IMG/VR virus record: IMGVR_UViG_3300042294_004161
Location: 1-64,000 of that record
Length of the DNA stretch: 64,000 bases
Source: a virus
Reading direction: 5' to 3' (one strand)
Shown here: piece by piece, positions 24,301 through 47,942 of the stretch
Layout of the letters: each line of letters starts with the position of its first letter
How positions within the stretch are numbered: position 1 is the first letter of the stretch
Made by a program: the position numbers and the translations under genes
Notes under the pieces: model-generated
Database searches by the model: none
Told to the model about the DNA's origin: nothing
Seen by the model: the letters and a program-made list of their open reading frames with translations, nothing else

Positions 24301-27300
24301 GGTTCAAGTGGCACCTCAGGAGATAACGGAAACTCAGGTACAAGTGCTATTTCTGGTACTTCAGGTACCTCAGGTACATCAGGATCAAATGGAGTTAATG
24401 GAGAAAATGGAACTTCAGCAATCTCAGGTACTTCAGGTACAAATGGTTCAAGCGGTACCTCAGGAGTAGCAGGTGATTCAGGTCTATCCAGAACATCAGG
24501 TACTTCAGGAACTAATGGTTCATCAGGTACCTCAGGTAATGAAGGAACATCAGGTGTTAGTGCATTATCAGGAACATCAGGTACAAATGGCTCAAACGGA
24601 ATTGATGGTATAGCAGGCACTTCAGGTGTTAGTGCAACATCTGGAACAAATGGTTCAAGCGGTACCTCAGGAGTAGCAGGTGATTCAGGTCTATCCAGAA
24701 CATCAGGTACTTCAGGCACCTCAGGTTCATCTGGCTCAAATGGAGTCACAGGAGATGATGGTATAAGTGCAGCCTCAGGTACAAGTGGTACTTCAGGTTC
24801 AGCAGGTACAAATGGAGAGGCAGGTATAAATGGAACAAGTGCAATTTCAGGAACATCAGGAACATCAGGTACTTCAGGTTCAAACGGAAATATAGGAGAA
24901 GATGGAACTTCAGCTCTATCTGGTACTAGTGGATCTTCAGGTTCAAATGGTACCTCAGGAAATAATGGTGCCTCAGGAACAAGTGCTATCTCAGGTACTT
25001 CAGGTACAAATGGTTCAAGCGGTACCTCAGGAGTAGCAGGTGATTCAGGTCTATCCAGAACATCAGGTACTTCAGGCACCTCAGGTTCAGCCGGTACAAA
25101 TGGTATTGATGGAGTTGCTGGTACCTCAGGTGTTAGTGCATTATCAGGAACATCAGGTACAAATGGTTCAAATGGTATTGATGGTGTAGCAGGTACCTCA
25201 GGTATAAGCTCAACTTCAGGTACAAATGGTTCCTCAGGTACAAATGGTATTAATGGTGTAGCAGGAACATCAGGTGTTAGCGCGGTCTCAGGCTCATCAG
25301 GTTCAAATGGCACAAATGGAATAAATGGAAATACAGGTACTTCAGGTGTAAGTGCAGTCTCAGGTACCTCAGGTACAAATGGTTCAAATGGTATTGATGG
25401 AGTTGCTGGTACTTCAGGTGTTAGCGCGGTCTCAGGTACCTCAGGTTCTAATGGTACAAACGGAATCAATGGAGTCGAAGGCACATCAGGTGTAAGTGCT
25501 ACCTCAGGTACTTCAGGTTCAAATGGTACCTCAGGTAACGCAGGAGCTTCAGGAGCTAGTGCTACTTCAGGTACTTCAGGAACAAATGGATCAAGTGGTA
25601 CTGCTGGAGCAGCTGGAGCCTCAGGTGCAAGTGCGGCCTCAGGTACCTCAGGTACTAATGGCTCTTCAGGTACAAATGGAGTTAATGGTAATGCTGGAAC
25701 TTCAGGTGTAAGCGCGGTCTCAGGCACAAATGGTACCTCAGGCACAAATGGTGTTAATGGTAACGCTGGAGCATCTGGTGTAAGCGCAACTTCGGGTACT
25801 AATGGTACAAATGGTACAACTGGAGCAACAGGTAATGCTGGAGCTTCAGGTGAATCAAGAACCTCAGGTACAAATGGTACTTCAGGCACAAATGGCACTT
25901 CAGGAGTTAACGGAGCATCAGGTGTAAGCGCAGTCTCAGGTACAAACGGTACATCAGGTACAAATGGAGTTAATGGTAATGCAGGAACTTCAGGTGTAAG
26001 CGCAGTCTCAGGTACAAACGGTACATCAGGTACAAATGGAGTTAATGGTAACGCTGGAGCATCTGGTGTTAGCGCAGTTTCAGGTACCTCAGGTACAAAT
26101 GGTACAAACGGAGCTAATGGTAATGCAGGTGCAAATGGTGCAAGTGCGGTATCAGGTACCTCAGGTACTTCAGGTACAGCAGGAAATAATGGTAATGCAG
26201 GAGGATCAGGTGTAAGTGCTACCTCAGGTACAAATGGTACTTCAGGTACTACAGGAGCTAATGGTAATGCAGGAGGATCAGGTGTAAGTGCAGTCTCAGG
26301 CACATCAGGTACAAATGGTACAAATGGTGCTAATGGAGCAGCAGGTGCAAATGGTGCAAGTGCAGCCTCAGGTACCTCAGGTACTTCAGGTACAGCAGGT
26401 ACAAATGGTTTATCTGTAAATGGTACTGCAGGTATAAGTGGAAATACATTTAATAATCAACCAGGATTCCCAGTACTTACATGTAATACTACTCAAATTC
26501 AAAGTACAAGCTTAATGTTCTTTGATGCTGGAAATAGTAGAGTATGTACCCCTGGAGATATGTTAATACATGGTGTATTTGTTGGTAAAGGTCCAGGAGC
26601 TATTGATACAAATACTAGAGTAGGGCCTGGAAATAATTTCAGCGGTAATACAACAGGTTATAGTAATGTAGCTATTGGAAGTAATGCTATGAAAGATAAT
26701 ACTACTGGAGCAAATAACGTAGCTGTTGGTAAGGATGCTTTACTAGATAATACTACAGGAGCTAGTAACATAGGAATAGGACGTAATGCCTTATATAATA
26801 CAAATTCCTCTAATAATATAGGTATTGGAACTAACTCTTCATTTAATAATTCAAGTGGTAATAAAAATGTAGCAATTGGATCTTCAGCATTATATTCTAA
26901 CACAACAGCTGCTACTAGTACAGCAATTGGTTATAGAGCGCAGTTATATTATAATCATTCTAATATTATAGCTGTTGGATCTGATTCTTTAGCATCAGCA
27001 GCTAACCACACAGTTTGGGGAAATTCAGCAAATGATGTTTGTAATTGTGTTTATGTAGCATGGTCAGAAGTTTCTGATTGTAGAGATAAAACAGAAATAG
27101 AAACATTATCTTCTGATTTAGGATTAAATTTAATTCGTAAACTAAGACCAGTATCCTTTAAAAAGGATCATAGAGATACATATGTAAGAGAATGTGGTTT
27201 TAAATATGGAGAAAAAGATGGCACATTAGCTGGAGAAAAAGAACATTATGGTTTAATAGCTCAAGAATTAAACCAAGCATTAACAGAATTAGACACTAGA

Positions 27301-27435
27301 TTTGATGCTTTAGGACATGATCCTAAAAAAGACGCATATCGTGTGACTTATACAGAATTAATAGCTCCTGTAATTAAATCAATTCAAGAATTAGACGAAA
27401 GATTAAAAATTGTTGAAACTAGATTGGAAATCTAA
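21331..27435 (+). CDS. giant Gly/Ser/Thr-repeat fibre with S74 chaperone domain
   Basis: A 2034-residue fibre. Residues 1-120 form a beta-type attachment domain. About 121-1700 are Gly-x-y triplets (x,y mostly Ser, Thr, Asn), without Pro, in a dominant 24-residue period marked by a triplet lacking Gly (A/R-x-S). Then comes a YadA-like head region with IGxNA/VGxDA repeats (about 1760-1890). The end is an S74 intramolecular chaperone: Ser1915 and Lys1920 in SDCRDKTEIE are the predicted self-cleavage dyad, followed by LRPVSFKKD, HYGLIAQEL and a coiled-coil ELDERLKIVETRLEI. It should trimerise, cut itself and form a long tail or head fibre. Ser/Thr richness makes it a candidate acceptor for the neighbouring glycosyltransferases. 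Confidence 0.88.
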   Translation: MAQVRFLDQVPVGVYNIDPTSGGGTIDIYQNGTLVSSSVPFINFSGSVELTSFDTNGITVYITSSGGSGTGFPFSGSAVITGSLVISGSTQPIVLQTLPVQSGPYVVTYNPETGIIGYVNSTSGTSGLSGSSGTAGVSGTSGTSGSNGSSGNTGISGTSAESGTSGSSGSAGSSGNIGANGTSAASGTSGTSGSSGSNGVTGENGTSAISGTSGSSGSSGTNGITGENGTSAISGTSGSSGSAGSSGNIGASGESAVSGTSGSSGSTGSNGVSGGNGTSGTSGESGSSGSNGESGISGQSATSGTSGSSGSNGETGISGESAISGTSGSSGSAGSSGNIGTNGNSAVSGTSGSSGSAGSNGVAGEDGASATSGTSGSSGSNGTSGDIGINGASASSGTSGSSGSNGSNGVAGENGTSGTSGTSGSSGSNGEAGISGESAISGTSGSSGSAGSNGAVGANGASASSGTSGSSGSNGSNGIVGEDGISAISGTSGSSGSSGSNGSNGVAGENGTSGTSGESGSTGSNGTSGENGASGISGTSGTSGTSGSTGSNGVAGGDGDSAISGTSGSSGSTGSNGIAGENGTSGLSGTSGSNGSNGVSGGNGTSGTSGESGSSGSIGTSGESGISGSSGISGTSGSTGSSGSSGANGTSGISGLSGSSGSSGTSGEDGISGTSGTSGSSGSNGTSGDDGISGTSAISGTSGTSGSNGNSGQNGTSGVSTTSGTSGSSGSIGTSGDASTSGESTTSGTSGSSGSIGTSGNAGESGQSNTSGTSGTSGSIGTSGESATSGTSGTSGSSGTLGSSGSSSESGTSGSSGTSGSSGESGTSGSSGTSGLSGESGTSGSSGTSGSSGESGTSGSSGLSGESRTSGSSGTSGSSGSSGDNGISGISATSGTSGSSGSSGDNGISGISATSGTSGTSGSNGINGDAGTSGISATSGTSGSNGTSGNDGISGTSAISGTSGTSGSNGTSGNNGNAGTSGISSTSGTSGSSGTSGDNGNSGTSAISGTSGTSGTSGSNGVNGENGTSAISGTSGTNGSSGTSGVAGDSGLSRTSGTSGTNGSSGTSGNEGTSGVSALSGTSGTNGSNGIDGIAGTSGVSATSGTNGSSGTSGVAGDSGLSRTSGTSGTSGSSGSNGVTGDDGISAASGTSGTSGSAGTNGEAGINGTSAISGTSGTSGTSGSNGNIGEDGTSALSGTSGSSGSNGTSGNNGASGTSAISGTSGTNGSSGTSGVAGDSGLSRTSGTSGTSGSAGTNGIDGVAGTSGVSALSGTSGTNGSNGIDGVAGTSGISSTSGTNGSSGTNGINGVAGTSGVSAVSGSSGSNGTNGINGNTGTSGVSAVSGTSGTNGSNGIDGVAGTSGVSAVSGTSGSNGTNGINGVEGTSGVSATSGTSGSNGTSGNAGASGASATSGTSGTNGSSGTAGAAGASGASAASGTSGTNGSSGTNGVNGNAGTSGVSAVSGTNGTSGTNGVNGNAGASGVSATSGTNGTNGTTGATGNAGASGESRTSGTNGTSGTNGTSGVNGASGVSAVSGTNGTSGTNGVNGNAGTSGVSAVSGTNGTSGTNGVNGNAGASGVSAVSGTSGTNGTNGANGNAGANGASAVSGTSGTSGTAGNNGNAGGSGVSATSGTNGTSGTTGANGNAGGSGVSAVSGTSGTNGTNGANGAAGANGASAASGTSGTSGTAGTNGLSVNGTAGISGNTFNNQPGFPVLTCNTTQIQSTSLMFFDAGNSRVCTPGDMLIHGVFVGKGPGAIDTNTRVGPGNNFSGNTTGYSNVAIGSNAMKDNTTGANNVAVGKDALLDNTTGASNIGIGRNALYNTNSSNNIGIGTNSSFNNSSGNKNVAIGSSALYSNTTAATSTAIGYRAQLYYNHSNIIAVGSDSLASAANHTVWGNSANDVCNCVYVAWSEVSDCRDKTEIETLSSDLGLNLIRKLRPVSFKKDHRDTYVRECGFKYGEKDGTLAGEKEHYGLIAQELNQALTELDTRFDALGHDPKKDAYRVTYTELIAPVIKSIQELDERLKIVETRLEI
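21695..26430 (+). repeat. 72-bp-period repeat array coding Gly-x-y triplets
   Basis: About 4.7 kb of degenerate 9-bp and 72-bp repeats inside the first fibre gene. Synonymous codons vary freely, but blocks of 60-70 bp recur exactly; for example the block with GTAGCAGGTGATTCAGGTCT occurs near 24466, 24675 and 25033. Long antisense open frames across it are by-products of the repeat composition. Confidence 0.9.
25621..25681 (+). repeat. 61-bp block identical to 32776-32836
   Basis: An identical 61-bp stretch, starting TCAGGTGCAAGTGCGGCCTC, occurs once in each giant fibre gene. This indicates recent exchange between the two repeat arrays. Confidence 0.85.
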
Positions 27436-30774: not shown

Positions 30775-33700
30775 ATGGCTGAAAATAGAAGTAGTGGAGT
30801 TAATAGGTTAGATAGTCCAGATAAAGGTAGAGGATTTTTTAACAACTCTTTAGGTTTTAATAAAAATAATCTACCTGTAGTTACTCAAGGATGGGAAAAT
30901 TATGTATTAACAATAGATGATACAGGTCTTGTATCTTTAGTTCAAGTATCATCAACAAGCACATCAGGAACAGCAGGTACTTCTGGTACAAGTGGTACAT
31001 CAGGCTCAAACGGTACATCAGGTTCAAGTGGTGCTTCCGGTTCAAGTGGTATCTCAGGTTCAAGAGGTACATCAGGTATAACTGGTTCATCAGGTACATC
31101 AGGTAGCTCATCAGGTACTTCAGGCTCAAGTGGCTCTTCAGGTACAGCAGGTGCAGACGGTCAGTCAGGTTTAAGTGCTACTTCAGGTACCTCAGGCACT
31201 TCAGGATCCTCAGGTACCTCAGGTCTAACAGGTTCATCAGGAATATCTAGAACCTCAGGCAGTTCAGGCTCAAGTGGTACATCAGGTTCCTCAGGTACAG
31301 CAGGTGCAGATGGTCAATCAGGATTAAGTGCTACCTCAGGTACATCTGGTTCCTCAGGCTCTTCAGGTACATCAGGTCTAACAGGTTCTTCTGGATTATC
31401 TAGAACCTCAGGTACATCAGGCTCATCAGGTTCCTCAGGTACAGCAGGTGCAGATGGTCAATCTGGCCTTAGCACTACATCTGGCACCTCAGGTTCATCA
31501 GGTTCAAGTGGTACCTCAGGTTTGGTAGGTTCATCAGGATTATCTAGAACCTCAGGTACTTCAGGCACCTCAGGATCAAATGGATCTTCAGGTACAGCAG
31601 GTGCAGATGGTCAATCAGGTTTAAGTGCTACATCTGGCACCTCAGGTTCATCAGGTTCAAGTGGTACCTCAGGTTTGGTAGGTTCATCAGGTTTATCTAG
31701 AACTTCAGGTTCAAGTGGTTCATCAGGTTCCTCAGGTACAGCAGGTGCAGACGGACAATCAGGTTTAAGTGCTACCTCAGGTACATCTGGTTCTTCTGGT
31801 TCTTCAGGTACCTCAGGTTTAGTAGGTTCTTCAGGACAGTCTAGAACCTCAGGTACATCAGGCTCAAGTGGCTCATCAGGTACAGCAGGTGCAGATGGTC
31901 AATCTGGACTAAGCTCAACTTCAGGCACTTCAGGATCAAGTGGCTCTTCAGGCACATCAGGTCTAGTTGGTTCATCAGGAATATCTAGAACTTCAGGTAC
32001 ATCTGGTACAAATGGCTCATCGGGTACAGCAGGAGCAGATGGTCAATCTGGATTAAGCGCTACCTCAGGTACATCAGGTACTTCAGGTTCAAGTGGAACT
32101 TCAGGTTTAGTAGGTTCTTCTGGTTTATCTAGAACATCTGGTGCTTCAGGTACATCAGGTACTTCTGGTACTAATGGTTCAAGTGGTACAGCAGGTGCAG
32201 ACGGTCAGTCAGGTTTAAGTGCTACCTCAGGTACAAGTGGAACTTCAGGTTCAAGTGGTACATCAGGACTAGTAGGTTCCTCAGGACTATCTAGAACATC
32301 AGGTACCTCAGGTACCTCAGGTTCTTCAGGTACATCAGGAACAAATGGTTCTTCTGGTACTTCAGGAAATGCTGGAGTTTCAGGAGTAAGCTCAACTTCA
32401 GGCACTTCAGGTACCTCAGGATCATCAGGTACATCAGGTCTAGCTAGAAGTTCAGGTACTTCAGGTAGTTCAGGTACAAGTGGTACATCAGGAGATATAG
32501 GTTCCTCAGGTGCCAGTGCAGCTTCAGGAACCTCAGGTACAAATGGCTCAAATGGTACCTCAGGTAATGCAGGTGTCTCAGGTGTAAGTTCTACCTCAGG
32601 TACAAGTGGTACATCAGGTTCTTCAGGTACATCAGGTTTAGCTAGAACTTCAGGTACCTCAGGTACCTCAGGTTCTTCAGGTACATCTGGTGATATTGGG
32701 ACAAGTGGTACAAGTACAGTCTCAGGTACCTCAGGTACCTCAGGTTCAAGTGGTACATCAGGAGATATAGGCACTTCAGGTGCAAGTGCGGCCTCAGGTA
32801 CCTCAGGTACTAATGGCTCTTCAGGTACAAATGGAGCAATAGGTACTTCAGGAGCCAGTGCCACCTCAGGTACTTCAGGATCCTCAGGTACAAATGGTAA
32901 TGCAGGTGTCTCAGGTGTTAGTTCAACCTCAGGTACTTCAGGTACCTCAGGTTCTTCAGGTACATCTGGTCTATCCCAAAGTTCAGGCACTTCAGGCACC
33001 TCAGGTTCTTCAGGTACATCTGGTGATGCAGGAGCTTCAGGTTTATCTAGAACCTCAGGTACTTCAGGCACTTCAGGATCAAATGGTACCTCAGGTAACG
33101 CTGGAGCCTCAGGTGCAAGTGCCACCTCAGGTACCTCAGGTACTAATGGATCTTCAGGTACAAATGGAGCAATAGGTACTTCAGGAACAAGTGCAGCCTC
33201 AGGTACCTCAGGTACAAACGGATCCTCAGGCACAAATGGTAACGCAGGTGTTTCAGGTGTAAGCTCTACCTCAGGTACAAGTGGTACATCAGGCTCAAGT
33301 GGCACTTCAGGTTTAGCTAGAAGTTCAGGTTCCTCAAGTGCTTCAGGTACCTCAGGTACCTCAGGTTCAGCTGGTACTTCAGGTATATCATTTAATGGTA
33401 CAAGTGGAATATCAGGTGGTGTATTTACAAACCAACCAGACTTTTTAGTACGAACTACAGGTACTACTACAATACAAAGTGTACCATTCCTATTTGCAGA
33501 TATAACTAATAGTAGGTTGGGTATTGGTACTACTACCCCGAACGCTCTTTTAAGTCTAGGAACATCAGTCCAAGATAATAAAATTTATCTTTACGATGGA
33601 ACCTCAGATAAATACGGTCTAGGAATACGCAGTAATCAACTTATAATTTATAGTGGCGCAGCTGCGGCTTCTACTGGGGGAATTCTTTTTGGCACCTATG

Positions 33701-35274
33701 ACGGTACAACGTTTGCCGAACTAATGAGAATAAGGAAAGATGGCAACGTAGGTATTGGAATAACATCCCCTGGCTCCCGTCTAGTAGTCCAAGGTTCAGG
33801 TGCAACATCAGCAACCTCTGCTCTAAATATAACCAACTCAACTCCAACAAGTCTATTGTTTGTAAGAGATGATAGCAACGTCGGTATTGGGACGACGGCG
33901 CCTGAAGCACTGCTACATTTAAGTAAATCATCGGCAGGTGGAGAAGGGGCATTTTTGTTTATTGATAACCCCGCAGCATCTACGTTAGACAATAAAGCTG
34001 GAATTAGATTTGCGACAAACGCTGGAGCTTCATTCTCAGGGTATGGTTCATTCATTGAAGCTATAAATACGAATGCTGGCAACGGTGCTGAATCATTAGC
34101 CTTTGGAACTTGGAATGGGGCAGCAAGAGGAGAGCGTATGCGTATTGATGCATCAGGCAACGTCGGCATTGGTACTACGAGTCCAAGTTCTTTGCTTGAT
34201 GTTGTTACAAACACGGTTGGCCTTGCTACAAATTCTATAAAATTAGGAAACGCAGCTGGAGACTCTAGAAGTGTTGGTCAATTTCTTGGCGACCAAGCGG
34301 TTTATAATCCAGCAGCGGCAACAAACACTACAAATGGTTCAGTTGCTGGAATTAAGTTCAATTGGTATAGCGAAAATTGGATGTTGTCTGCTACACGTGG
34401 TGGGGGCGCTGATATAGAAGGATTAGTAATTAGTAGAAATGGTACTGAAAGATTAGTTATTAGCTCAACAGGTAATGTAGGCATTGGCACGACGGCGCCA
34501 TTCTCAACTGCAAAATTACAAGTTAAGACTGCCACGGATATAAACGTAGCAATACAAACTGGTACAACAAATACTTCCGGAATTAAAATAAATGCATTTA
34601 ACGATGCTGGTAATGCAAATATACCTTTAGAATTAAACGGTTCTATTTTAAGTCTAAAAACGGGTGAGGCAGAACGGATGCGTATTGATGCATCAGGCAA
34701 CGTCGGCATTGGCACGACAAGTCCAGGCTCTCGCCTAGTAGTCCAAGGCTCAGGCACAACATCAGCAACATCAGCTCTCAATGTAACCAACTCAACCCCA
34801 ACAAGCCTATTGTTTGTAAGAGATGATGGAAACGTAGGTATTGGAACTTCTTCTCCTTTATACCCTGTAGTGATAGCAAATAGAGGTCCAGCAGGAACTC
34901 CTCAACGTTCTCTAGCAATAGGTAACACAGCAACTAATGGTACATTTATGTATCTTGGATCTTCAGCATCTACATCAGGATATAATTTAATACAATCAGT
35001 AACTACTGAGGGTACAGCTTACGGTAATTTAGTACTACAACCAGAAGCTGGTGATGTAGGTATAGCGACAACATCTCCACAAGCAAAACTTCATGTAGCT
35101 GGAACAGTAAGAATAGATAGTACATCCTCTACCCCCAATAGTTTAGGAGGTAGTGTAGATACATTATTAACAAATACAGCCACAGATAATATAGCTATGG
35201 GGGTTCCTGATACTTGGCTTCAAATTAATATAAATGGTGTAGATTATGCTATCCCAGTATATCAACCTGCTTAA
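30775..35274 (+). CDS. giant Gly/Ser/Thr-repeat fibre with GIGTTxP C-terminal repeats
   Basis: A 1499-residue fibre. A 60-residue N-terminal attachment segment (GFFNNSLGFNKNNLPVVTQGWENYVLTIDD) precedes Gly-x-y triplets from about 61 to 880, with the same Gly-less marker triplets (ATS, RTS) every 24-27 residues. A junction SFNGTSGISGGVFTNQPDF is shared with the first fibre. The C-terminal 600 residues carry repeats of NVGIGTT(S/A)P, common in phage fibres, with several 30-125-bp internal duplications and a higher GC content. It ends DTWLQININGVDYAIPVYQPA and, unlike the first fibre, has no S74 domain. Probably a second adhesion fibre. Confidence 0.85.
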   Translation: MAENRSSGVNRLDSPDKGRGFFNNSLGFNKNNLPVVTQGWENYVLTIDDTGLVSLVQVSSTSTSGTAGTSGTSGTSGSNGTSGSSGASGSSGISGSRGTSGITGSSGTSGSSSGTSGSSGSSGTAGADGQSGLSATSGTSGTSGSSGTSGLTGSSGISRTSGSSGSSGTSGSSGTAGADGQSGLSATSGTSGSSGSSGTSGLTGSSGLSRTSGTSGSSGSSGTAGADGQSGLSTTSGTSGSSGSSGTSGLVGSSGLSRTSGTSGTSGSNGSSGTAGADGQSGLSATSGTSGSSGSSGTSGLVGSSGLSRTSGSSGSSGSSGTAGADGQSGLSATSGTSGSSGSSGTSGLVGSSGQSRTSGTSGSSGSSGTAGADGQSGLSSTSGTSGSSGSSGTSGLVGSSGISRTSGTSGTNGSSGTAGADGQSGLSATSGTSGTSGSSGTSGLVGSSGLSRTSGASGTSGTSGTNGSSGTAGADGQSGLSATSGTSGTSGSSGTSGLVGSSGLSRTSGTSGTSGSSGTSGTNGSSGTSGNAGVSGVSSTSGTSGTSGSSGTSGLARSSGTSGSSGTSGTSGDIGSSGASAASGTSGTNGSNGTSGNAGVSGVSSTSGTSGTSGSSGTSGLARTSGTSGTSGSSGTSGDIGTSGTSTVSGTSGTSGSSGTSGDIGTSGASAASGTSGTNGSSGTNGAIGTSGASATSGTSGSSGTNGNAGVSGVSSTSGTSGTSGSSGTSGLSQSSGTSGTSGSSGTSGDAGASGLSRTSGTSGTSGSNGTSGNAGASGASATSGTSGTNGSSGTNGAIGTSGTSAASGTSGTNGSSGTNGNAGVSGVSSTSGTSGTSGSSGTSGLARSSGSSSASGTSGTSGSAGTSGISFNGTSGISGGVFTNQPDFLVRTTGTTTIQSVPFLFADITNSRLGIGTTTPNALLSLGTSVQDNKIYLYDGTSDKYGLGIRSNQLIIYSGAAAASTGGILFGTYDGTTFAELMRIRKDGNVGIGITSPGSRLVVQGSGATSATSALNITNSTPTSLLFVRDDSNVGIGTTAPEALLHLSKSSAGGEGAFLFIDNPAASTLDNKAGIRFATNAGASFSGYGSFIEAINTNAGNGAESLAFGTWNGAARGERMRIDASGNVGIGTTSPSSLLDVVTNTVGLATNSIKLGNAAGDSRSVGQFLGDQAVYNPAAATNTTNGSVAGIKFNWYSENWMLSATRGGGADIEGLVISRNGTERLVISSTGNVGIGTTAPFSTAKLQVKTATDINVAIQTGTTNTSGIKINAFNDAGNANIPLELNGSILSLKTGEAERMRIDASGNVGIGTTSPGSRLVVQGSGTTSATSALNVTNSTPTSLLFVRDDGNVGIGTSSPLYPVVIANRGPAGTPQRSLAIGNTATNGTFMYLGSSASTSGYNLIQSVTTEGTAYGNLVLQPEAGDVGIATTSPQAKLHVAGTVRIDSTSSTPNSLGGSVDTLLTNTATDNIAMGVPDTWLQININGVDYAIPVYQPA
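30955..33400 (+). repeat. 72-81-bp-period repeat array coding Gly-x-y triplets
   Basis: A 2.4-kb array in the second fibre gene. The higher-order unit in its first half contains GADGQSGLSATSGTSG and GLSRTSG and recurs about eight times with few changes. Confidence 0.88.
32776..32836 (+). repeat. 61-bp block identical to 25621-25681
   Basis: The partner of the identical block in the first giant fibre gene. Confidence 0.85.
33769..33893 (+). repeat. C-terminal fibre module duplicated at 34722-34846
   Basis: About 125 bp coding SRLVVQGSG(A/T)TSATSALN and SLLFVRDD recur at 34722-34846 with scattered third-base differences. In addition, about 35 bp around CGTATTGATGCATCAGGCAA are repeated at 34138 and 34678. 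Confidence 0.75.
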
Positions 35275-38625: not shown

Positions 38626-39301
38626 ATTTTATACAAAAAATAACCAACTAATTGACATATCAACATGGGATATATCAGGTGATATAAATGATATAGGAAA
38701 TAGATATGGTTGGGAAGGATCAATGGCTTATGGTAATTTAATACATGATGAATTAAATATCCATGGACCTGGAATGCAATATGGTGATATTTATTTAGAT
38801 TTAGGGGCTAACATTGGTATGTCTGCTATTAGAGCTGAGTCCAAAGGATGTTCTAAAATATATTGTATCGAACCAGATCCTGGAGTGTTTGAGGCTTTAA
38901 ATAAAAATAAAAGTTATAATTGGATCGTAGATAATATAGCTATAGGTACAGAACAAGGGTATATTGATATTTCTAAATGGCCTGATTGGTGGGATGTACA
39001 ACCAATTCAATGTATTACATTAGATCAATTTTTTGCGAAACATAATCTTAGTAAAGTAGATTATATGAAGTGTGATATTGAAGGTCATGAAAAATATGTT
39101 TTTGAAAATGTAAGTCAAATAACATGGGATAAAATACAAAAAATATTTTTTGAATATCATGAAGACACTCAAAATTTAAATGAAGAACAAAGAAATGAAG
39201 AACGATTAAAATTTGTTAAATTTTTTGCTGATAAAGGTTTTAATAATCATTTTGTTTCTCTTGGATATTATCAAAGTTTTATATATTATTGGAAATCATG
39301 A
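38609..39301 (+). CDS. FkbM-family methyltransferase
   Basis: A 230-residue SAM-dependent O-methyltransferase. DIYLDLGANIGMSAIRAESKGCSKIYCIEPDPGVFEAL is the SAM-binding motif I/II region, and CITLDQFFAKHNLSKVDYMKCDIEGHEKYVFEN is the FkbM hallmark. ATGs at 38609 and 38615 are both possible starts; the first is listed. FkbM enzymes methylate sugar hydroxyls or carboxyls in many phage and bacterial glycan loci. It overlaps both neighbours, so it belongs to the same glycan pathway. Confidence 0.85.
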   Translation: MNMRTKFYTKNNQLIDISTWDISGDINDIGNRYGWEGSMAYGNLIHDELNIHGPGMQYGDIYLDLGANIGMSAIRAESKGCSKIYCIEPDPGVFEALNKNKSYNWIVDNIAIGTEQGYIDISKWPDWWDVQPIQCITLDQFFAKHNLSKVDYMKCDIEGHEKYVFENVSQITWDKIQKIFFEYHEDTQNLNEEQRNEERLKFVKFFADKGFNNHFVSLGYYQSFIYYWKS

Positions 39302-40494
39302 AAAACATATTAATTAACGAATACAACAATACCCCAATCCTAAATTTAGAGAATAAAAAACCACAAAATAAATTTATAATTAATTTTATAGATGGTGCTT
39401 TCTTAGAAATATTAGGTCCTGTAAATCTAGAATATAAAGCTAAATTTATAGATCGAAAAACTAAAAAAGTACTCCATGAAACTACACTTAGTAATAACAT
39501 GTGGACTCGTACTAATATTAAATATTGTATTAATTGGCGAGTAGAAGTTTATCAAAACAATAATTTAGTGTATGAACATGATTGGGATCCAACAGGTAAA
39601 AGAGTCTATATTGCTTTAGATTCAGGAGCCTTAGGTGATACATTAGCTTGGTTTCCATATGTAGAAGAATTTAGAAAAACATTTATGTGTGATGTTGTAT
39701 GTTCTACATTCCATAATGATTGGTTTAAAGAAAACTATCCAAATATTGAATTTATAAAACCAGGTACAGTAGCGAATGATTTATATGCTATGTATCCAAT
39801 TGGATGGTTTTATGATAATAAAAAAGTAGTATATGATAAAGTACCAATTGATTTTAAAAAATATCCATTACAACAAACAGCTAGTGAAATTTTAGGATTA
39901 AGCTATAGTGAAACAAAACCAAATCTAGTTACACCTAATATAAAAACAGATATTGAAGGAGAATATGTAGTAATAGCACCTCATGCTTCAGCTCATGCTA
40001 AGTACTGGATGTATGAAAAAGGATGGCAATCTATAATAGACTATTTAAATGAAAAAGGATATAAAGTAGTTATGTTAACTGGAGAGCCTTTAAATGATGA
40101 ATGGCATGATTCAAAATTAGGAGGTACACTAACTGGAGTAATAAATAAAACTGGATATCATATAGATATTAAAGACCGAATGATTGATATTAGAGATGCT
40201 AAAGCATTTATAGGAGTAGGTAGTGGATTAAGTTGGTTATCATGGTCATTAAACACCCCTACAATTTTAATATCTGGTTTTAGTTATCCATATACTGAAA
40301 TGCAAGACTGTGAACGTATATTCCCTGAAAATAAATCAGTATGTACTGGATGTTTTAACAGACATTGGCTAAACCCAGGAGATTGGGAATGGTGTCCTGA
40401 TCATAAAGATACTCCAAGACAATTTGAATGTACTAAAACAATCACCCCAGATCAAATAATTAAATCAATAAATAAAATTTTAAAAATCAAATAA
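39298..40494 (+). CDS. TibC/BAHT-type autotransporter O-heptosyltransferase homologue
   Basis: A 398-residue protein resembling the bacterial autotransporter heptosyltransferase family (strand-loop-strand O-heptosyltransferase, TibC). It has YIALDSGALGDTLAW, with Asp114 at the position of the catalytic Asp. DAKAFIGVGSGLSWLSWSLNTPTILISGFS is the donor site. Cys349, Cys352, Cys366 and Cys378 lie in CTGC..WCPD..RQFECT and match the iron-binding finger. TibC puts heptose on Ser of repetitive adhesins. The ATG at 39298 gives an ATGA overlap with the methyltransferase; the TTG upstream is rejected. It is the strongest hint that the repeat fibres are O-glycosylated. Confidence 0.82.
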   Translation: MKNILINEYNNTPILNLENKKPQNKFIINFIDGAFLEILGPVNLEYKAKFIDRKTKKVLHETTLSNNMWTRTNIKYCINWRVEVYQNNNLVYEHDWDPTGKRVYIALDSGALGDTLAWFPYVEEFRKTFMCDVVCSTFHNDWFKENYPNIEFIKPGTVANDLYAMYPIGWFYDNKKVVYDKVPIDFKKYPLQQTASEILGLSYSETKPNLVTPNIKTDIEGEYVVIAPHASAHAKYWMYEKGWQSIIDYLNEKGYKVVMLTGEPLNDEWHDSKLGGTLTGVINKTGYHIDIKDRMIDIRDAKAFIGVGSGLSWLSWSLNTPTILISGFSYPYTEMQDCERIFPENKSVCTGCFNRHWLNPGDWEWCPDHKDTPRQFECTKTITPDQIIKSINKILKIK

Positions 40495-40798: not shown

Positions 40799-42904
40799 AT
40801 GGCAGAAACCTTAATATCCCCAGGCGTATTAGCACTGGAAAACGACAATTCATTCGTATCATCTCAACCAGTAACGGTTGGAGCAGCTATTATAGGACCA
40901 ACAGTAAAAGGTCCAGTAGAAATTCCAACTATTGTTACATCTTATAGTGAGTATCAAAACAAATTTGGTACTACATTCATAAGTGGTGGTCAAGTTCAAA
41001 GCTACTTTACATCAGTAGCAGCTTTCAATTACTTTAACAACGGTGGTGAAACATTATTAGTAGCTAGAGTAGTAAGTGGATCATTCAATCCAGCTTCTTC
41101 TAGTATCTATAATTTAAATTTAGCTAGTACAGCCTCTGTAAACGCTAATTTAACTTATGTTTCAGCTAGTGTAGCTGCTGTTGGTTCAGGTTCATTTAGT
41201 GTTAATGGTATTGAATTCTTCTTTACTGGATCTACAGTAGCAAATACATCAACTAGAATATCTGTTAATACAGGTTCATTTGCAGCTAGTACAGCAGCAG
41301 ATTATGCGGCTACTGCATCAGCAGTATTTAATGTAAGTAAATCAATTGCCCCATACAGTACTGTATTATCTGGTATAACATCTTCAGTATCAGCATCAAC
41401 TGGAATTAAATTAGATGCTGGTGTAGTAGGAGGTGAATTTAATTATTTATTATTAAATGAATTTACATTTACATCAGGAAGTACTGTTACTAAATTTAGT
41501 GGTGCTATAGGTACTGAAGCTTTAGAATTAAAAACTATTTCTGAAGGAAATATAATGAATAATGCTGGACCTACAGGATCTAACAATTCATTAATATCAG
41601 GATCAGCAGATAATGTAAGATGGCAAATTACAAACAGAGACACAGCCTCAGGTACATTTAGTTTATTAATCAGAAGAGGTGACGATGATAATATCAATCC
41701 AGTTGTATTAGAAACATGGACTAACTTATCATTAGACCCAACCCAACCAAACTATGTATCTAAAGTAATTGGTAATCAATTCCAACAATTTAGTTCACAA
41801 GATAATCAGATTGAGGTAATTGGTGATTTTCCAACAAGATCAAGATACGTCTATGTAGCATCAGTAAATTCTCCAACTCCTTTCTATTTAGGAAACAATG
41901 GTTTAGCTAAATCTGAATTTACTTCATCTATACCTTTCAATACCAATGGAACATTTGGTGGAGCAACAGGTGATTTATTTTATGGTGGAGGAGCTGATTA
42001 TCATAATAACATTAATAGTGCTACAACTGCACCTCAAGGTATCTCATCCTCAGATTATAATGGTATGATTAACTTATTAGCTAATGCTGATGATTATAGA
42101 TTTAATGTATTGGTAGTTCCTGGTTTATTTGCTTCAACAGCAGATTTAGGTGCTTCACAAATAACAGCTATTATTAATAACACTCAAAATAGAGGTGATT
42201 CTATTTATATATCTGATTTAGTACCATTTGGTTCAAATATAGGTGATGTTACAACTCAAGCAAATGCTAAAAACACATCATATGCTGCTACATATTGGCC
42301 TTGGGTTCAAACAATTGACCCAGACTCAGCTCAATTAGTATGGGTTCCAGCATCAACAATGATGGTAGGTGTTTACGCTTATAATGATAATGTAAGTGAG
42401 CCTTGGTTCGCCCCAGCTGGTATTAACAGAGGTGGATTAGGAAATGTAATAAGAGCTGAAAAGAAATTAACTCAAGCTAACCGTGATACTTTATATTCAA
42501 ATAAAGTAAATCCAATAGCAACATTCCCAGGAACTGGAATAGTAGCATATGGTCAGAAAACATTACAAACTAAAGCCTCAGCTCTTGATAGAGTAAATGT
42601 TCGTAGATTATTAATTTCTCTTAAGTCTTATATTTCTCAAGTAGCACAAAACTTAGTATTTGAACAAAACACAATTGCTACAAGAAATCAATTCTTAAGT
42701 CAAGTAAATCCATATCTAGAATCAGTACAACAACGTCAAGGTTTATATGCTTTCAAAGTAATTATGGATGATAGTAATAATACTGCTGATGTAATTGATA
42801 GAAACCAGATGGTAGGTCAGATTTATATTCAACCAACTAAAACAGCTGAATTTATTTATCTAGATTTCAACATCTTACCAACAGGCGCAGTATTTCCCGC
42901 TTAA
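40799..42904 (+). CDS. tail sheath protein (gp18-like)
   Basis: A 701-residue contractile sheath subunit. The N-terminus LISPGVLALENDNSFVSSQPVTVGAAIIGPTVKGPVEIPTIVTSYSEYQNKFG is the conserved sheath start. The C-terminus (about 560-701) has the core domain with INRGGLGNVIRAEKKLTQANRDTLYSNKVNPIATFPGTGIVAYGQKTL and a terminal strand (AEFIYLDFNILPTGAVFPA) for the inter-subunit weave. The middle is a Ser/Thr-rich exposed insertion. It forms the outer tail cylinder that contracts on infection. A terminator follows. Confidence 0.95.
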   Translation: MAETLISPGVLALENDNSFVSSQPVTVGAAIIGPTVKGPVEIPTIVTSYSEYQNKFGTTFISGGQVQSYFTSVAAFNYFNNGGETLLVARVVSGSFNPASSSIYNLNLASTASVNANLTYVSASVAAVGSGSFSVNGIEFFFTGSTVANTSTRISVNTGSFAASTAADYAATASAVFNVSKSIAPYSTVLSGITSSVSASTGIKLDAGVVGGEFNYLLLNEFTFTSGSTVTKFSGAIGTEALELKTISEGNIMNNAGPTGSNNSLISGSADNVRWQITNRDTASGTFSLLIRRGDDDNINPVVLETWTNLSLDPTQPNYVSKVIGNQFQQFSSQDNQIEVIGDFPTRSRYVYVASVNSPTPFYLGNNGLAKSEFTSSIPFNTNGTFGGATGDLFYGGGADYHNNINSATTAPQGISSSDYNGMINLLANADDYRFNVLVVPGLFASTADLGASQITAIINNTQNRGDSIYISDLVPFGSNIGDVTTQANAKNTSYAATYWPWVQTIDPDSAQLVWVPASTMMVGVYAYNDNVSEPWFAPAGINRGGLGNVIRAEKKLTQANRDTLYSNKVNPIATFPGTGIVAYGQKTLQTKASALDRVNVRRLLISLKSYISQVAQNLVFEQNTIATRNQFLSQVNPYLESVQQRQGLYAFKVIMDDSNNTADVIDRNQMVGQIYIQPTKTAEFIYLDFNILPTGAVFPA

Positions 42905-42990: not shown

Positions 42991-43479
42991 ATGGCAATAT
43001 TAGATCCAAACGAAATATTTTTCACCGCTTTTGAACCAAAACAAGCTAACCGATTCATCATGTATATTGATGGTATCCCTGCTTATGAAATCAAAGGGGT
43101 AAGTGCAGTAAGTTTAACTCAAGGTACCGTAGCTTTAAATCATATTAACGTACAACGTTTTGTTAAAGGCAAATCTACTTGGGGACCAATTACATTCACA
43201 TTATTTGATCCAATCACACCTTCAGGTGCTCAAGCAGTAATGGAATGGGTACGTTTACATCACGAATCAGTAACTGGTAGAGATGGTTATAGTGATTTCT
43301 ACAAGAAAGACTTAACATTTGATGTATTAGGACCAGTAGGTGATATTGTATCAGAGTGGATTATTAAAGGTGCTTTAATTACTGAAGCTAATTTTGGCGA
43401 TTATAACTGGGATACAGTAGATACAGCTATTAACATTACAATGACAGTACAACCAGATTACTGTGTATTAAATTTCTAA
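42991..43479 (+). CDS. tail tube protein (gp19-like)
   Basis: A 162-residue tube subunit. EPKQANRFIMYIDGIPAYEIKGVSAVSLTQ is the first strand pair. KGKSTWGPITFTLFDPITPSGAQAVMEWVRLHHESVTGRDGYSDFYKKDLTFDVL and the C-terminal NWDTVDTAINITMTVQPDYCVL complete the gp19-type barrel. It polymerises as hexamer rings under the sheath on the length-determining tape measure. It is bounded by terminators on both sides, allowing separate high expression. Confidence 0.92.
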   Translation: MAILDPNEIFFTAFEPKQANRFIMYIDGIPAYEIKGVSAVSLTQGTVALNHINVQRFVKGKSTWGPITFTLFDPITPSGAQAVMEWVRLHHESVTGRDGYSDFYKKDLTFDVLGPVGDIVSEWIIKGALITEANFGDYNWDTVDTAINITMTVQPDYCVLNF

Positions 43480-43593: not shown

Positions 43594-43863
43594 ATGACAA
43601 CATTCTATTTTGTATTAGGTATGGTTGTAGTCTTGGTAATAGCTGAGGTTATAGCTATGGTTATAGCAATTAAAATAATTAATTCACTAAACCAACAAGT
43701 AACAAATTTTAAAAATGAATTAAGATCAATTTATGAAGATTTTAATAATTTAAGACGAGATACAGATCAACAATTTCAAGAAGTTTATCGACAAATTGAT
43801 TCTCGATTAGATAAATTAGAAACTAGGTTAACAACATCACCAAAACAAGTTATAAAAGGATAA
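43594..43863 (+). CDS. small membrane-anchored coiled-coil protein
   Basis: Eighty-nine residues. There is one N-terminal membrane helix (about 4-28, FVLGMVVVLVIAEVIAMVIAIKII), followed by a coiled coil (QVTNFKNELRSIYEDFNNLRRDTDQQFQEVYRQIDSRLDKLETRL). This layout resembles Rz-type spanins or small host-membrane effectors, but no lipoprotein partner is visible. It is inserted between tail tube and tail chaperone genes and framed by a near-perfect inverted repeat. Function unknown. Confidence 0.55.
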   Translation: MTTFYFVLGMVVVLVIAEVIAMVIAIKIINSLNQQVTNFKNELRSIYEDFNNLRRDTDQQFQEVYRQIDSRLDKLETRLTTSPKQVIKG

Positions 43864-43927: not shown

Positions 43928-44653
43928 ATGACAGAATTTAAATTCCCTACAGAAATTGTAGAATTACCTTCAAAAGGTTTAGTATATCCTGAAGGTTCTC
44001 TTTTAGCAGAAGGTAAAATTGAAATGAAATACATGACTGCTAAAGAAGAAGATATTCTTACAAACCAAGCTTACATTAAACAAGGTACAGTTTTAGATAA
44101 GCTATTACAATCTTTAATTGTAAGTAAAATTAACTATGATGATTTAATTGTAGGTGATAAAAATGCATTATTTATTGCAGCTCGTATTTTAGGTTATGGT
44201 AAAGATTATACCTTTTCATACAATGGAGAAGAAATTACAGTAGATTTATCATCTTTAAATAATAAACCATTTAATGAATCTTTAGTTACTAAGGGTTTAA
44301 ATGAATTCCATTTTACACTTCCATCTTCACAAACAAAAATTACTTTTAAAATTCTTACAAGTGGGGATGATAGAAAAATTGATACTGAAATAACAGGACT
44401 AAAGAAAATCAATAAAGATGCATCTCCAGAATTATCTACTCGTCTAAAATATATTATTACATCTGTTAATGGAGATAAAGATGAAAAAACAATTCGTGAA
44501 TTTGTAGATAATTACTTATTAGCTCGAGACTCTAGAGCTTTAAGAGAATATATTAAACAAATTCAACCTGATGTTGATTTAACTTATATTACTGATGGTG
44601 GTGAGGAGGTCACTATTCCAATTAATTTAAACTTTTTTTGGCCTGACATTTGA
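43928..44653 (+). CDS. gp26-like baseplate/tail assembly chaperone
   Basis: A 241-residue protein of the T4_baseplate family (gp26-like; PF12322 from memory). The N-terminus EIVELPSKGLVYPEGSLLAEGKIEMKYMTAKEEDILTNQAYIKQGTVLDKLLQS is the family signature, and the end is VTIPINLNFFWPDI. Its place directly before the tape-measure gene is that of tail assembly chaperones (lambda gpG-like) in other phages. The run of seven T at codons for Phe-Phe (44633-44639) could shift ribosomes into the +1 frame of the next feature. Confidence 0.75.
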   Translation: MTEFKFPTEIVELPSKGLVYPEGSLLAEGKIEMKYMTAKEEDILTNQAYIKQGTVLDKLLQSLIVSKINYDDLIVGDKNALFIAARILGYGKDYTFSYNGEEITVDLSSLNNKPFNESLVTKGLNEFHFTLPSSQTKITFKILTSGDDRKIDTEITGLKKINKDASPELSTRLKYIITSVNGDKDEKTIREFVDNYLLARDSRALREYIKQIQPDVDLTYITDGGEEVTIPINLNFFWPDI

Positions 44654-44939
44654 TATAGTTCCACAAGTTAGAATTAATCTATTTACTCAAATTCATGAAA
44701 TAGTATTCCATAGTAATGGAGGTTATGATTGGCATACAATATATAATATGCCAATATGGTTAAGAAAGTTTACATTTAATAAACTTAAAGAACATTATGA
44801 CAAAATAAATAATAATGAAAGTAGTGATAATGTTTCTAAATCTATAGAAGCTATGAAATCAGCTGGATCTGTAAATAAAACTCCAATACCAAAAACTATT
44901 ACACCTAATACTTATATTACAAAGGCATCAAAAAAATGA
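44640..44939 (+). CDS. +1-frame extension of the tail chaperone (gpGT-like)
   Basis: An open frame of 99 codons beginning inside the end of the gp26-like gene (GLTFDIVPQVRINLF, HSNGGYDWHTIYNMPIWLRKFTFNKLKEHYDKI). The protein-like sequence starts far upstream of its first ATG (44748), so it is probably made by a ribosomal +1 shift at TTT TTT TGG (44633-44641), or from a non-ATG start. The arrangement chaperone, frameshifted extension, tape measure is the classical G/GT pattern of tailed phages. An assembly error in the T run is the alternative. The 3' end overlaps a terminator stem. Confidence 0.6.
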   Translation, partial: GLTFDIVPQVRINLFTQIHEIVFHSNGGYDWHTIYNMPIWLRKFTFNKLKEHYDKINNNESSDNVSKSIEAMKSAGSVNKTPIPKTITPNTYITKASKK

Positions 44940-44981: not shown

Positions 44982-47669
44982 ATGGCAACTCCTGAGGAAA
45001 TACAAAAATTACTTAAAGACTTAGAAAAAGTTTATAAAGAATTAGGTACTAAAAATCCATTTGCTAATTTTGATGCTTCTAAAGTTTCAGATGCTAGTGC
45101 AGCTGTTGCTATTCTTAATGCAGGATTAAGAGATGCTAAACGAGAATTAAATGACATAAATGGGGATTTAAATGATACTGTCACAGCTTTTAAAAAAACA
45201 GTTGATGAAATTAAAAATACTAACTCAGGTCTTACATTAGCCTCTAAAACATTTAGTGGTTTAAGTGATATAGCTCGAAAATTAAAATCAGACCAAGCTG
45301 GAATTAATGAACTTTCAGGAAAAGAATTAAAAACATTACAAAAACAAGCTAAAGAAAAACGAGAAGATTTAATAGTTTCTAAAGATCTTCTTACATCCAG
45401 AATTTCAGAATTAAAAGAACTAGAAAAAAAAGGTGAATTAAATAAAAAAAATGAAAAAGAATTAATTCAATCTATAAATGCGGCTAAAGCTATTAAAAAT
45501 GAATTAAGAGAACAAGATACTCTTTCTGCTTTAATTAATGGTAGATTAAATCAACGTATAAAACAAGAAGAAAGAATTGAAGGATTACTAGGTTTAGGTG
45601 GCGCCTCTATAGAAGGTGCTAAAAAAGCATTAGATAAATTAGGTTTTGGAGGATTAGCAAATGCCCTTGGTTTAGATAAAGTCAAGGAGAAAATGGAAGA
45701 AGTAGCTGAGACTACAGAAAAATCTGAAGGATATACTGGAGGATTTTCTGATAAAATGAAAGTACTTAAATCAGGAATTTCTGAAGCTGGGGTTCAATTT
45801 AAAAAATCTTTAACAGATCCAACAGTAGTTACTACATTTTTAATTAATGAAATGGTATCTGCTCTTACCTCTGCTGATAAAGCTACAGGTGAATTAGCTA
45901 AATCTTTTGGTACTTCATATTCTGAGGCTACATCATTAAGAAATGAGTTAAATACAGTAGCTAATTTAAGTGGTGATATAAATGTTAATACAGCAGCTCT
46001 CCAAAAATCATTAATAGCTATTAATAAAGAATTTGGAACAGCATCAATGCTTAATGGTGAACTTCTTAAAGATTTCACTCAATTAACTACAGCAGCTGGT
46101 TATACTGAAGAGGCGGCATTAGGTTTATCTAAAATTACTGTAGCTACAGGTACAGATTTATCTGAAAATACATCTGAGATTTTAGGACAAGCAATGGCTT
46201 TTAATGCTACTAATAAGTTAGCTTTAAATGAAAAAGAAATTGTTGAAGGTGTAGCTAAAGCATCTGCAGCTACTACTTTATCTTTAGGAATGCAACCTAA
46301 AGAAATAGCTAAAGCTGTAGCCCAATCTAAAGCATTAGGTGTATCTTTACAACAAGTAGAACAAATAGCTAATTCATTACTTAATTTTGAACAATCTATT
46401 TCATCTGAATTAGAAGCAGAATTATTAACAGGTAAAGAACTTAATTTAGAAGAAGCAAGAAGATTTGCACTTAATAATGATATAGCTGGAGTAGCTAGAG
46501 AAATAGCAAAACAAATAGGAACAGCTGCTGATTTTACTAAAATGAATGTTATTCAACAAGAAGCATTAGCAAAGTCTGTTGGAATGACTCGTGAAGATTT
46601 AGCTAACTCTTTAATAGAAAGAGAAGCATTAGCTAAAATTGGTAAAGGAGAAACAAATGCTCTAGAAGCATATAATAGACTTAAAAAAGAAGGACTATCT
46701 GATGACCAAATAGCAGCTAGATTAGGAGATGAAAAATTAGCAACTCAATTAAAATCTCAATCAGTTCAAGAACGTTTTAATGCCTCAGTTGAAAAATTAA
46801 GAGAAATTTTTGTTAGTTTAGCAGAACCTGTTTTACAAATAATATCTCCATTTATGGATTTAGCAACAACAATATTACCTTTAATTAATATAGCATTAAC
46901 TCCAATTACAGGAATTCTTAAATTTTTAGGAGAATCAATCCAATTTACTTTAGGATTAATAAGATCACTTTTAAAAGAAATTGGAGATCTTTTAAGCCCA
47001 TTAACTAATATTCTTAATCCTTTATTTAAAGGCTTTTCAGAATTTGTAGAACAATCTAAAATTTTAAATACAATTTTAGAAGTCACAAAATCTATAGTAG
47101 GATCTATTGTTATTGCTTACGGAGCAATAGCAGCTTATAATGCAACTGCTAGTTTTTTTGCTGGACTAAGAGCAAAAGCTGAACAATCAACAGAAAAATC
47201 TTTAATTAGACAAGGTATTGTTATGTTAAAAAATTTAGGAACAGCTATTTTAGAGGCTGTTGCTAAAGTTACAGGAGCTAGTGCTGCTACTTTAGGAGTT
47301 GCTGCCGGCATAGCAGCAGTCGCCGGAGCTTCAGCTTACGCTTTTTTAAATAGCAAAAAAGGTAATGATATAATATCCCCAGGATATGGTGAACGTACAT
47401 TATTCGGTCCAGAAGGAGCAATAGCATTAAATAATAAAGATACAGTAATAGCAGGTACTAGTTTGTTTGGAGAAAATAAAAATCAATCAATAAATGAATC
47501 TACATCTGCATCTCCCTCATCCCCCTCAATTAACTTATCACCATTAATTGAACGTATGATGGCTGTAGAAAATGTATTAGTACAAATTCTAAATAAAGAA
47601 GGTGGAGTATATTTAGATGGTACTAAAGTAGGTACAGCAATGGCTGTAAGTACTTACAGAGTTCAATAA
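44982..47669 (+). CDS. tape measure protein
   Basis: An 895-residue helical protein. The first 250 residues are Lys/Glu/Leu coiled coil (LLKDLEKVYKELG, LIVSKDLLTSRISELKELEKKGEL). The middle has KSFGTSYSEATSLRNELNTVANLSGDINVNTAALQKSLIAIN, typical of tape measures. Hydrophobic stretches lie at about 605-680 (ISPFMDLATTILPLINIALTPITGILKFLG) and about 700-790 (IVGSIVIAYGAIAAYNA, ATLGVAAGIAAVAGASAYAF), which may cross the host membrane during DNA entry. It sets tail length, is packed in the tube, and takes the place of T4 gp29. The upstream chaperone pair supports the call. Confidence 0.85.
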   Translation: MATPEEIQKLLKDLEKVYKELGTKNPFANFDASKVSDASAAVAILNAGLRDAKRELNDINGDLNDTVTAFKKTVDEIKNTNSGLTLASKTFSGLSDIARKLKSDQAGINELSGKELKTLQKQAKEKREDLIVSKDLLTSRISELKELEKKGELNKKNEKELIQSINAAKAIKNELREQDTLSALINGRLNQRIKQEERIEGLLGLGGASIEGAKKALDKLGFGGLANALGLDKVKEKMEEVAETTEKSEGYTGGFSDKMKVLKSGISEAGVQFKKSLTDPTVVTTFLINEMVSALTSADKATGELAKSFGTSYSEATSLRNELNTVANLSGDINVNTAALQKSLIAINKEFGTASMLNGELLKDFTQLTTAAGYTEEAALGLSKITVATGTDLSENTSEILGQAMAFNATNKLALNEKEIVEGVAKASAATTLSLGMQPKEIAKAVAQSKALGVSLQQVEQIANSLLNFEQSISSELEAELLTGKELNLEEARRFALNNDIAGVAREIAKQIGTAADFTKMNVIQQEALAKSVGMTREDLANSLIEREALAKIGKGETNALEAYNRLKKEGLSDDQIAARLGDEKLATQLKSQSVQERFNASVEKLREIFVSLAEPVLQIISPFMDLATTILPLINIALTPITGILKFLGESIQFTLGLIRSLLKEIGDLLSPLTNILNPLFKGFSEFVEQSKILNTILEVTKSIVGSIVIAYGAIAAYNATASFFAGLRAKAEQSTEKSLIRQGIVMLKNLGTAILEAVAKVTGASAATLGVAAGIAAVAGASAYAFLNSKKGNDIISPGYGERTLFGPEGAIALNNKDTVIAGTSLFGENKNQSINESTSASPSSPSINLSPLIERMMAVENVLVQILNKEGGVYLDGTKVGTAMAVSTYRVQ

Positions 47670-47699: not shown

Positions 47700-47942
47700 A
47701 TGAGTGTATTAGATTTACTTAACAACGGGTCTCAACTTACCGCATATGACGGTAGAACCCCAGCATCATATGATGGTGCATCTCAATTTCAAAGAGGATT
47801 AGAAGTATCACAATTAGATTTAAATGGTAGAAGACCAATACCATTTGATGGAACAACTCAATATGAAAGAGGATTAGCAGTTTCTCAACTAGATTTAGAT
47901 GGTAGAACTCCTAACAGATATTTAGATAATCCACCTAGATAA
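47700..47942 (+). CDS. small protein with two 28-residue repeats
   Basis: Eighty residues made of two tandem units: DGRTPASYDGASQFQRGLEVSQLDLN and GRRPIPFDGTTQYERGLAVSQLDLD, then a partial third (GRTPNRYLDNPPR). The conserved positions are Y/FDG, QxxRGL and VSQLDL. The gene ends directly at the ATG of the large baseplate protein, so they are co-translated. A structural linker or baseplate component is likely. No named family. Confidence 0.6.
   Translation: MSVLDLLNNGSQLTAYDGRTPASYDGASQFQRGLEVSQLDLNGRRPIPFDGTTQYERGLAVSQLDLDGRTPNRYLDNPPR

Follow-up and report, generated by a model that had tools for sequence, protein, structure and literature searches.

A +1 programmed ribosomal frameshift very probably operates near the 3' end of a gp26-like tail assembly chaperone gene in the window, i.e., the whole 64,000-nucleotide stretch of viral DNA analyzed here, which was taken from a viral record of 99 kb that encodes a T4-type major capsid protein. 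As judged from sequence comparison, the gene would give two products, the zero-frame protein TAC-N and the extended protein TAC-NC, presumably the short and the long tail assembly chaperone. The evidence comes from frame architecture, conservation of the slippery site, selection on the extension and synteny, and from these we infer the production of the fusion, the slipping tRNA, the ratio of the products and their function. A programmed +1 shift had been proposed from the letters of the window; comparison with homologues supported this reading, and position and homology supported the chaperone role.

Gene order and reading frames at the site

The relevant features of the window were as follows.

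40799–42904, + strand: tail sheath protein (PF04984, PF17482, phrog_23)
42991–43479, + strand: tail tube protein (phrog_4542, E=7.6e-24)
43594–43863: small ORF of 89 aa with an apparent N-terminal membrane segment and a coiled coil, between tube and chaperone
43928–44653, + strand: TAC-N, gp26/gp51-like zero-frame product of 241 aa (phrog_150, 'baseplate hub', E=9.5e-10)
44628–44630, + strand: +1-frame stop TAA just 5' of the site, bounding the shift to 44631–44650 (sequence)
44633–44639, + strand: predicted +1 slippery site TTT TTT T (TTT YTT T conservation, codon 1 usage, preceding non-T)
44651–44653, + strand: zero-frame stop TGA, end of TAC-N (sequence)
44640–44939, + strand: TAC-C, +1-frame extension of 99 aa (frame relation in homologues, codon-position bias, helical AF2 model)
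44982–47669, + strand: tape measure protein candidate of 895 aa (similarity to an immuto protein, synteny)

The gp26-like gene ends with AAC TTT TTT TGG CCT GAC ATT TGA, and both the sequence and the ORF calls confirmed that its product ends in INLNFFWPDI. In the zero frame, AAC occupies 44630–44632, the two TTT codons 44633–44635 and 44636–44638, TGG 44639–44641, and the stop follows at 44651–44653. The +1 frame is free of stops from 44631, directly after its TAA, to a TGA ending at 44939, and this reading frame was absent from the program-made ORF list. Both frames are open over 20 nt only, with the T run inside. Because the +1 frame is closed upstream by TAA and the zero frame downstream by TGA, a shift is possible only within 44631–44650. 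From GGC at 44640, the +1 frame contains exactly 36 codons before the ATG at 44748, and the −1 frame stops at once after the T run (TTG GCC TGA). The +1 sequence had been called protein-like, and homologues encode the same +1 peptide. The arrangement of the frames is not a product of chance, and the original prediction described it correctly in every point.

The tube gene, the chaperone gene and the tape measure candidate follow one another in the G/GT-type order. The tape measure candidate had no Pfam or PHROG match of its own; it resembled a protein of the cultured Flavobacterium phage immuto that is annotated as tail tape measure (29.5% identity, 597 aa, E=1e-58), and 121 of 133 loci had a homologue of it 3' of the extension. 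The small ORF between tube and chaperone had no annotated counterpart at that place in immuto.

Conservation of the site among homologues

A first scan recovered 80 homologues, every one of which had the site and encoded the same +1 peptide; one of its search patterns included the slip site. The scans were repeated using alignments that covered only the N-terminal part and had various distant members at their head, and the results were pooled with the first set. When the extension profile was applied to 331 homologous loci, 322 had a +1 extension, 2 had a −1 extension, and 0 had a fused one; hence, the +1 relation held in 322 of the 324 testable loci. The remaining 7 loci were contigs cut near the site and the divergent RM378, whose extension frame, read directly, is also open in +1. 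A simple fused gene, which had been named as the finding that would overturn the prediction, was therefore encountered in no homologue. Likewise, a fused gene broken by a sequencing or assembly error in the T run has practically no probability: homopolymers are error-prone in principle, but independent contigs by the hundred and several cultured phages, some of them with no run at the site, show the same frame relation, which excludes such an error.

In all, 255 out of 260 distinct sequence contexts match TTT YTT T when read in the zero frame, namely, TTTTTTTGG (199), TTTTTTTAC (31), TTTCTTTGG (14), TTTTTTTTC (7), TTTCTTTAC (3), and TTTTTTTAT (1). The five exceptions were TTT CTA TTC (L084), TTC TTT TGG (L180), TTC TTT TAC (L170), and TTC TTC TGG (L275 and L317). 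In a non-redundant set of 181 loci less than 80% identical, codon 1 of the site was TTT in 179 and TTC in 2, and TTT makes up 80% of the Phe codons in these genes. Only 5 in-frame occurrences of TTTYTTT were found elsewhere in the 181 genes. The site is thus not a matter of chance, as TTTYTTT sits at the end of nearly every homologous gene, occurs 5 times elsewhere, and is accompanied by the same +1 peptide in the homologues. A tree built without the site sequence implies at least 6 switches of codon 2 between TTT and CTT and at least 8 changes of codon 3, with the site staying slippery throughout.

The hosts of the +1 family, for the most part putatively assigned, include Flavobacteriales (contigs, immuto) and others (RM378, Microcystis phage). 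Unannotated +1 extensions were also observed in Listeria phage LIS04 (L343, 4208–4439), where the extension belongs to the same chaperone family and lies between the 'baseplate hub' gene and the tape measure gene, and in Streptococcus phage GXN1 (L342, 4229–4497), where it lies between the 'baseplate hub' gene and the next large ORF. The site of GXN1 reads TTC TTT CGT CCC CGA.

Selection on the extension

Substitutions 3' of the zero-frame stop were counted in 60 independent pairs. The changes at +1-frame codon positions 1, 2 and 3 numbered 220, 125 and 572, respectively, and single-base codon changes were synonymous or nonsynonymous in a ratio of 422:167 in the +1 frame vs 80:528 and 77:547 in the other two frames. 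This pattern indicates that the +1 extension is under strong purifying selection. Moreover, ATG, GTG and TTG were all absent between the site and the conserved GGY core of the extension in 145 of the 181 loci. From the selection and the missing start codons, it was therefore concluded that the extension is genuinely part of a protein and is translated as a continuation of the upstream gene. As in G/GT-type genes, an overlapping extension is conserved as protein in another frame, and a conserved slippery sequence lies in the overlap.

These data also bear on whether two separate proteins are made, the second from ATG 44748 or by re-initiation, with the upstream open frame being fortuitous. The ATG is present, and the depositors of immuto annotated such a short ORF. 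However, amino-acid conservation begins at the slip site, well 5' of the ATG, purifying selection acts 5' of position 44748, most loci have no start codon before the core, as counted above, and several relatives (L030/L031) have Leu at the ATG position. A second protein starting at a conserved ATG only, which had also been named as contrary evidence, thus found no support among the homologues, and we consider this explanation extremely unlikely.

Direction of the proposed shift and register of the T run

The original prediction placed tRNA-Phe re-pairing on a run of seven T. Re-pairing held in the comparison; the slip is better described by a UUU codon with a pyrimidine after it, at one or the other of two adjacent codons, than by a T7 run as such. 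This one rule fits all +1 members examined. The rule 'YUU then U' was also considered and rejected, as it fails for L084 and GXN1. A homopolymer is lacking in TTT CTT TGG, which was found in 14 contexts, including immuto.

The variants weigh on two other ways of reaching the same frame. In the first, RNA polymerase would drop one U or add two in the T7 run and ribosomes would stay in frame. The window and most relatives do have the seven-T run, but the relatives with TTT CTT TGG, codon 2 having changed at least 6 times on the tree, encode the same extension without it, and the runs are held at exactly 7 (153 of 166) by a non-T base upstream, the opposite of what slippage would lead one to expect. 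Transcriptional slippage was ruled out as a general mechanism because variants without a homopolymer exist, and for the window it is very unlikely. In the second, the ribosome would shift by −2, as in Mu, giving NFFFGLT instead of NFFGLT. The final frame is identical and tRNA-Phe can re-pair two bases back in T7; however, re-pairing backward is poor in the TTT CTT TGG and TTT CTA TTC relatives, and the +1 move from UUU to UUC is perfect. A −2 shift is accordingly highly improbable, and the +1 ribosomal shift is retained below.

The base before the site is a T in only 6 of the 181 loci. Where an Asn or Ser codon precedes the site, AAT/AGT occurs 4 times vs 87 for AAC/AGC; elsewhere in the gene, the numbers are 1878 vs 684 (p=4e-43, for related sequences that are not fully independent). 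A preceding T would create the classical −1 heptamer T TTT TTT, and these counts indicate that the +1 lineage avoids it. In the window, TTT TTT is preceded by C and the extension lies in +1, so the canonical −1 form X XXY YYZ is absent. Distant members that have the heptamer carry a −1 extension, namely, Stenotrophomonas phage RAS14 (AGT TTT TTT) and LR756511 (GGT TTT TTC). L275 and L317 are the only near relatives without UUU-Y and are exactly the two with a −1 extension. On the tree, the direction of the frameshift changed at least 3 times.

We lean towards the view that one chaperone family steers the direction of frameshifting by the register of its T run: T TTT TTT would direct −1, and a non-T followed by TTT TTT T would direct +1 through tRNA-Phe moving from UUU to UUY, without a stop codon, a Shine-Dalgarno element or strong downstream structure, with a large +1 lineage (phages of Bacteroidota and other aquatic bacteria) avoiding the −1 heptamer. 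If true, this would provide a +1 site that is conserved although poor in stimulators, and a natural means of reversing the direction.

The two contigs with a −1 extension, L275 (3686–3947) and L317 (3430–3694), read TTC TTC TGG CCT TCC CGR TAG and are 58% identical to each other. A canonical −1 heptamer was not evident in either, and a −1 slip site was not found.

Stimulators and proposed mechanism

Neither a close Shine-Dalgarno-like element nor another conserved stimulator was found near the site among the relatives, and no conserved purine block adjoins it; the A-site codon is TGG or TTT, unlike in RF2-type sites, and is not obviously rare. A purine-rich Gly-Glu stretch 24–39 nt upstream in many relatives was rejected as a source of Shine-Dalgarno stimulation, as it is too distant and is explained by first-position G codons. 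RNA folding gave no convincing signal, with z-scores near the site being mildly negative (−0.4 to −1.4; control 0.1). No phage-encoded tRNA was detected in the window, and no bS21 gene in the record.

Under the proposed mechanism, most ribosomes would read FFWPDI and stop, releasing TAC-N. In some ribosomes, tRNA-Phe on the P-site UUU would move forward by one base to pair with UUU (or UUY in relatives), and translation would continue with GGC CTG ACA..., giving TAC-NC of a predicted ~336 aa with a helical C-terminal domain. The junction peptide expected for the window is QIQPDVDLTYITDGGEEVTIPINLNFFGLTFDIVPQVR (NFFGLT). For immuto, the expected peptide is FFPEDGPDGGVDIPIGVSFFGLTPEYR if slippage takes place on the first codon (UUU to UUC) and ...VSFLGLTPEYR if it takes place on the second (CUU to UUU). 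By analogy with lambda gpG/gpGT, the N part may form a coat on the tape measure protein, whose gene comes next, and the recruitment of tail tube subunits may fall to the C domain.

Relation to T4 gp26 and gp51

The phrog_150 family matched by the window protein is that of T4 gp26 and gp51. PF12322 (T4_baseplate) gave no match for the window protein itself and was matched by 23 of 32 relatives (best E=1e-17). When the T4 proteins were taken from NC_000866, homology between gp26 and gp51, the latter ~45 residues longer, extended over almost the whole of gp26 (hhalign E=5e-16). On these profile matches, T4 gp26 and gp51 are evidently paralogues of the TAC-N protein of the window. As for the extension, five relatives of it matched phrog_634 (best E=5e-4), which also covers the C-terminus of gp51, and in some fused relatives the phrog_150 alignments run on into the extension. 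A direct comparison of the extension with the gp51 C-terminus (204–249) by hhalign aligned the same residues, with E=0.3–0.6, which is not significant.

The N domain and the extension were modelled apart with AF2. The TAC-N model had a pLDDT of 92.9, and its top Foldseek matches include phage 'baseplate hub' proteins; among the matches listed, the PDB entry with the best probability was the HK97 tail assembly chaperone 2ob9, at a non-significant E=1.6 and probability of 0.35. The TAC-C model was helical (mean pLDDT 78.4), and a Foldseek search with the extension alone returned nothing significant. In the 2010 T4 tail review, both gp26 and gp51 are listed as chaperones of hub assembly; gp51 is characterized there as an essential protein whose function is unknown and which is missing from the final particle. 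Our comparison agrees with the interpretation of T4 genes 26 and 51, which have long gone under the name of baseplate hub genes, as those for the short and long tail assembly chaperones.

Comparison with known frameshift systems

The order tube, chaperone, extension, tape measure had been likened to the classical gpG/gpGT arrangement and described as not known for T4 itself. The order was borne out by synteny; the remark on T4 needs context. Frameshifting is reportedly conserved in several T4-like groups, and T4 is said to use genes 26 and 51. T4-like tail assembly chaperone genes were identified in 2022, in a paper whose title argues for a non-frameshift mechanism (Vladimirov, Gautam, Davidson 2022, Virology 566:9-15), and a paper citing it describes poly-T signals for −1 shifting in the TAC-N genes of T4-like phages. 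The T4-like genes share with the window the protein family (phrog_150/PF12322), the position before the tape measure gene, and short and long forms; as far as the accessible text of these sources goes, they differ in that their signals are −1 poly-T, whereas the window has +1 at UUU-Y and T4 itself two genes, 26 and 51.

Tail assembly chaperones are a classical case of frameshifting, according to the available part of the Atkins review. In lambda gpG/gpGT, too, a frameshift late in the chaperone gene adds a C-terminal extension, and the tape measure gene lies directly 3'; however, the lambda shift is −1, and no sequence relation to the window was detected. RF2 frameshifting needs an A-site stop codon and a Shine-Dalgarno-like element just upstream. 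Both are absent at the window site, although bacterial RF2 (prfB, CUU UGA) also shifts +1 and the CTT T variants of the chaperone site match its CUU U. In the influenza A PA-X site UUU CGU, as covered in the same part of the review, tRNA-Phe slips +1 from UUU to UUC with no obvious stimulator, as proposed here; PA-X is an unrelated eukaryotic virus gene with another A-site codon than the window, and GXN1 of the chaperone family has TTT CGT. The haloarchaeal myovirus HSTV-2, of another virus group and likened here by description only, is reported there to have a very likely +1 shift in a tail assembly gene. The available parts of the Atkins review and the PRFect paper do not mention the chaperone +1 site.

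A frameshifted tail chaperone is therefore known in kind. Apparently new, as far as the literature examined goes, are the +1 direction at a UUU-Y site, how deeply that site is conserved, the fact that the −1 heptamer is avoided, and the change of register between −1 and +1. Conserved +1 sites in bacteria and phages have been described far less often than −1 sites. The present site is kept in hundreds of environmental phages, its natural variants act as mutagenesis, and one family contains a clean +1/−1 switch. It offers a testable rule, UUU then pyrimidine with no T before, and a route to annotating an overlooked long chaperone in many phages.

Other features of the window

A family 9 glycosyltransferase (heptosyltransferase) gene is situated among the tail genes at 39289–40494. 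An 80-aa ORF (47700–47942) lies between the tape measure candidate and the next gene; it contains a 75-nt tandem repeat in 1.9 copies (SQLDLNGRRPIPFDGTTQYERGL), and a family match for it was not found. Two very large ORFs, 21331–27435 (2034 aa) and 30775–35274 (1499 aa), consist mostly of collagen-like repeats. These are probably tail fibres because the first ends in a C-terminal Peptidase_S74 chaperone domain. Antisense ORFs of 891 and 366 aa opposite them look like by-products of the repeats.
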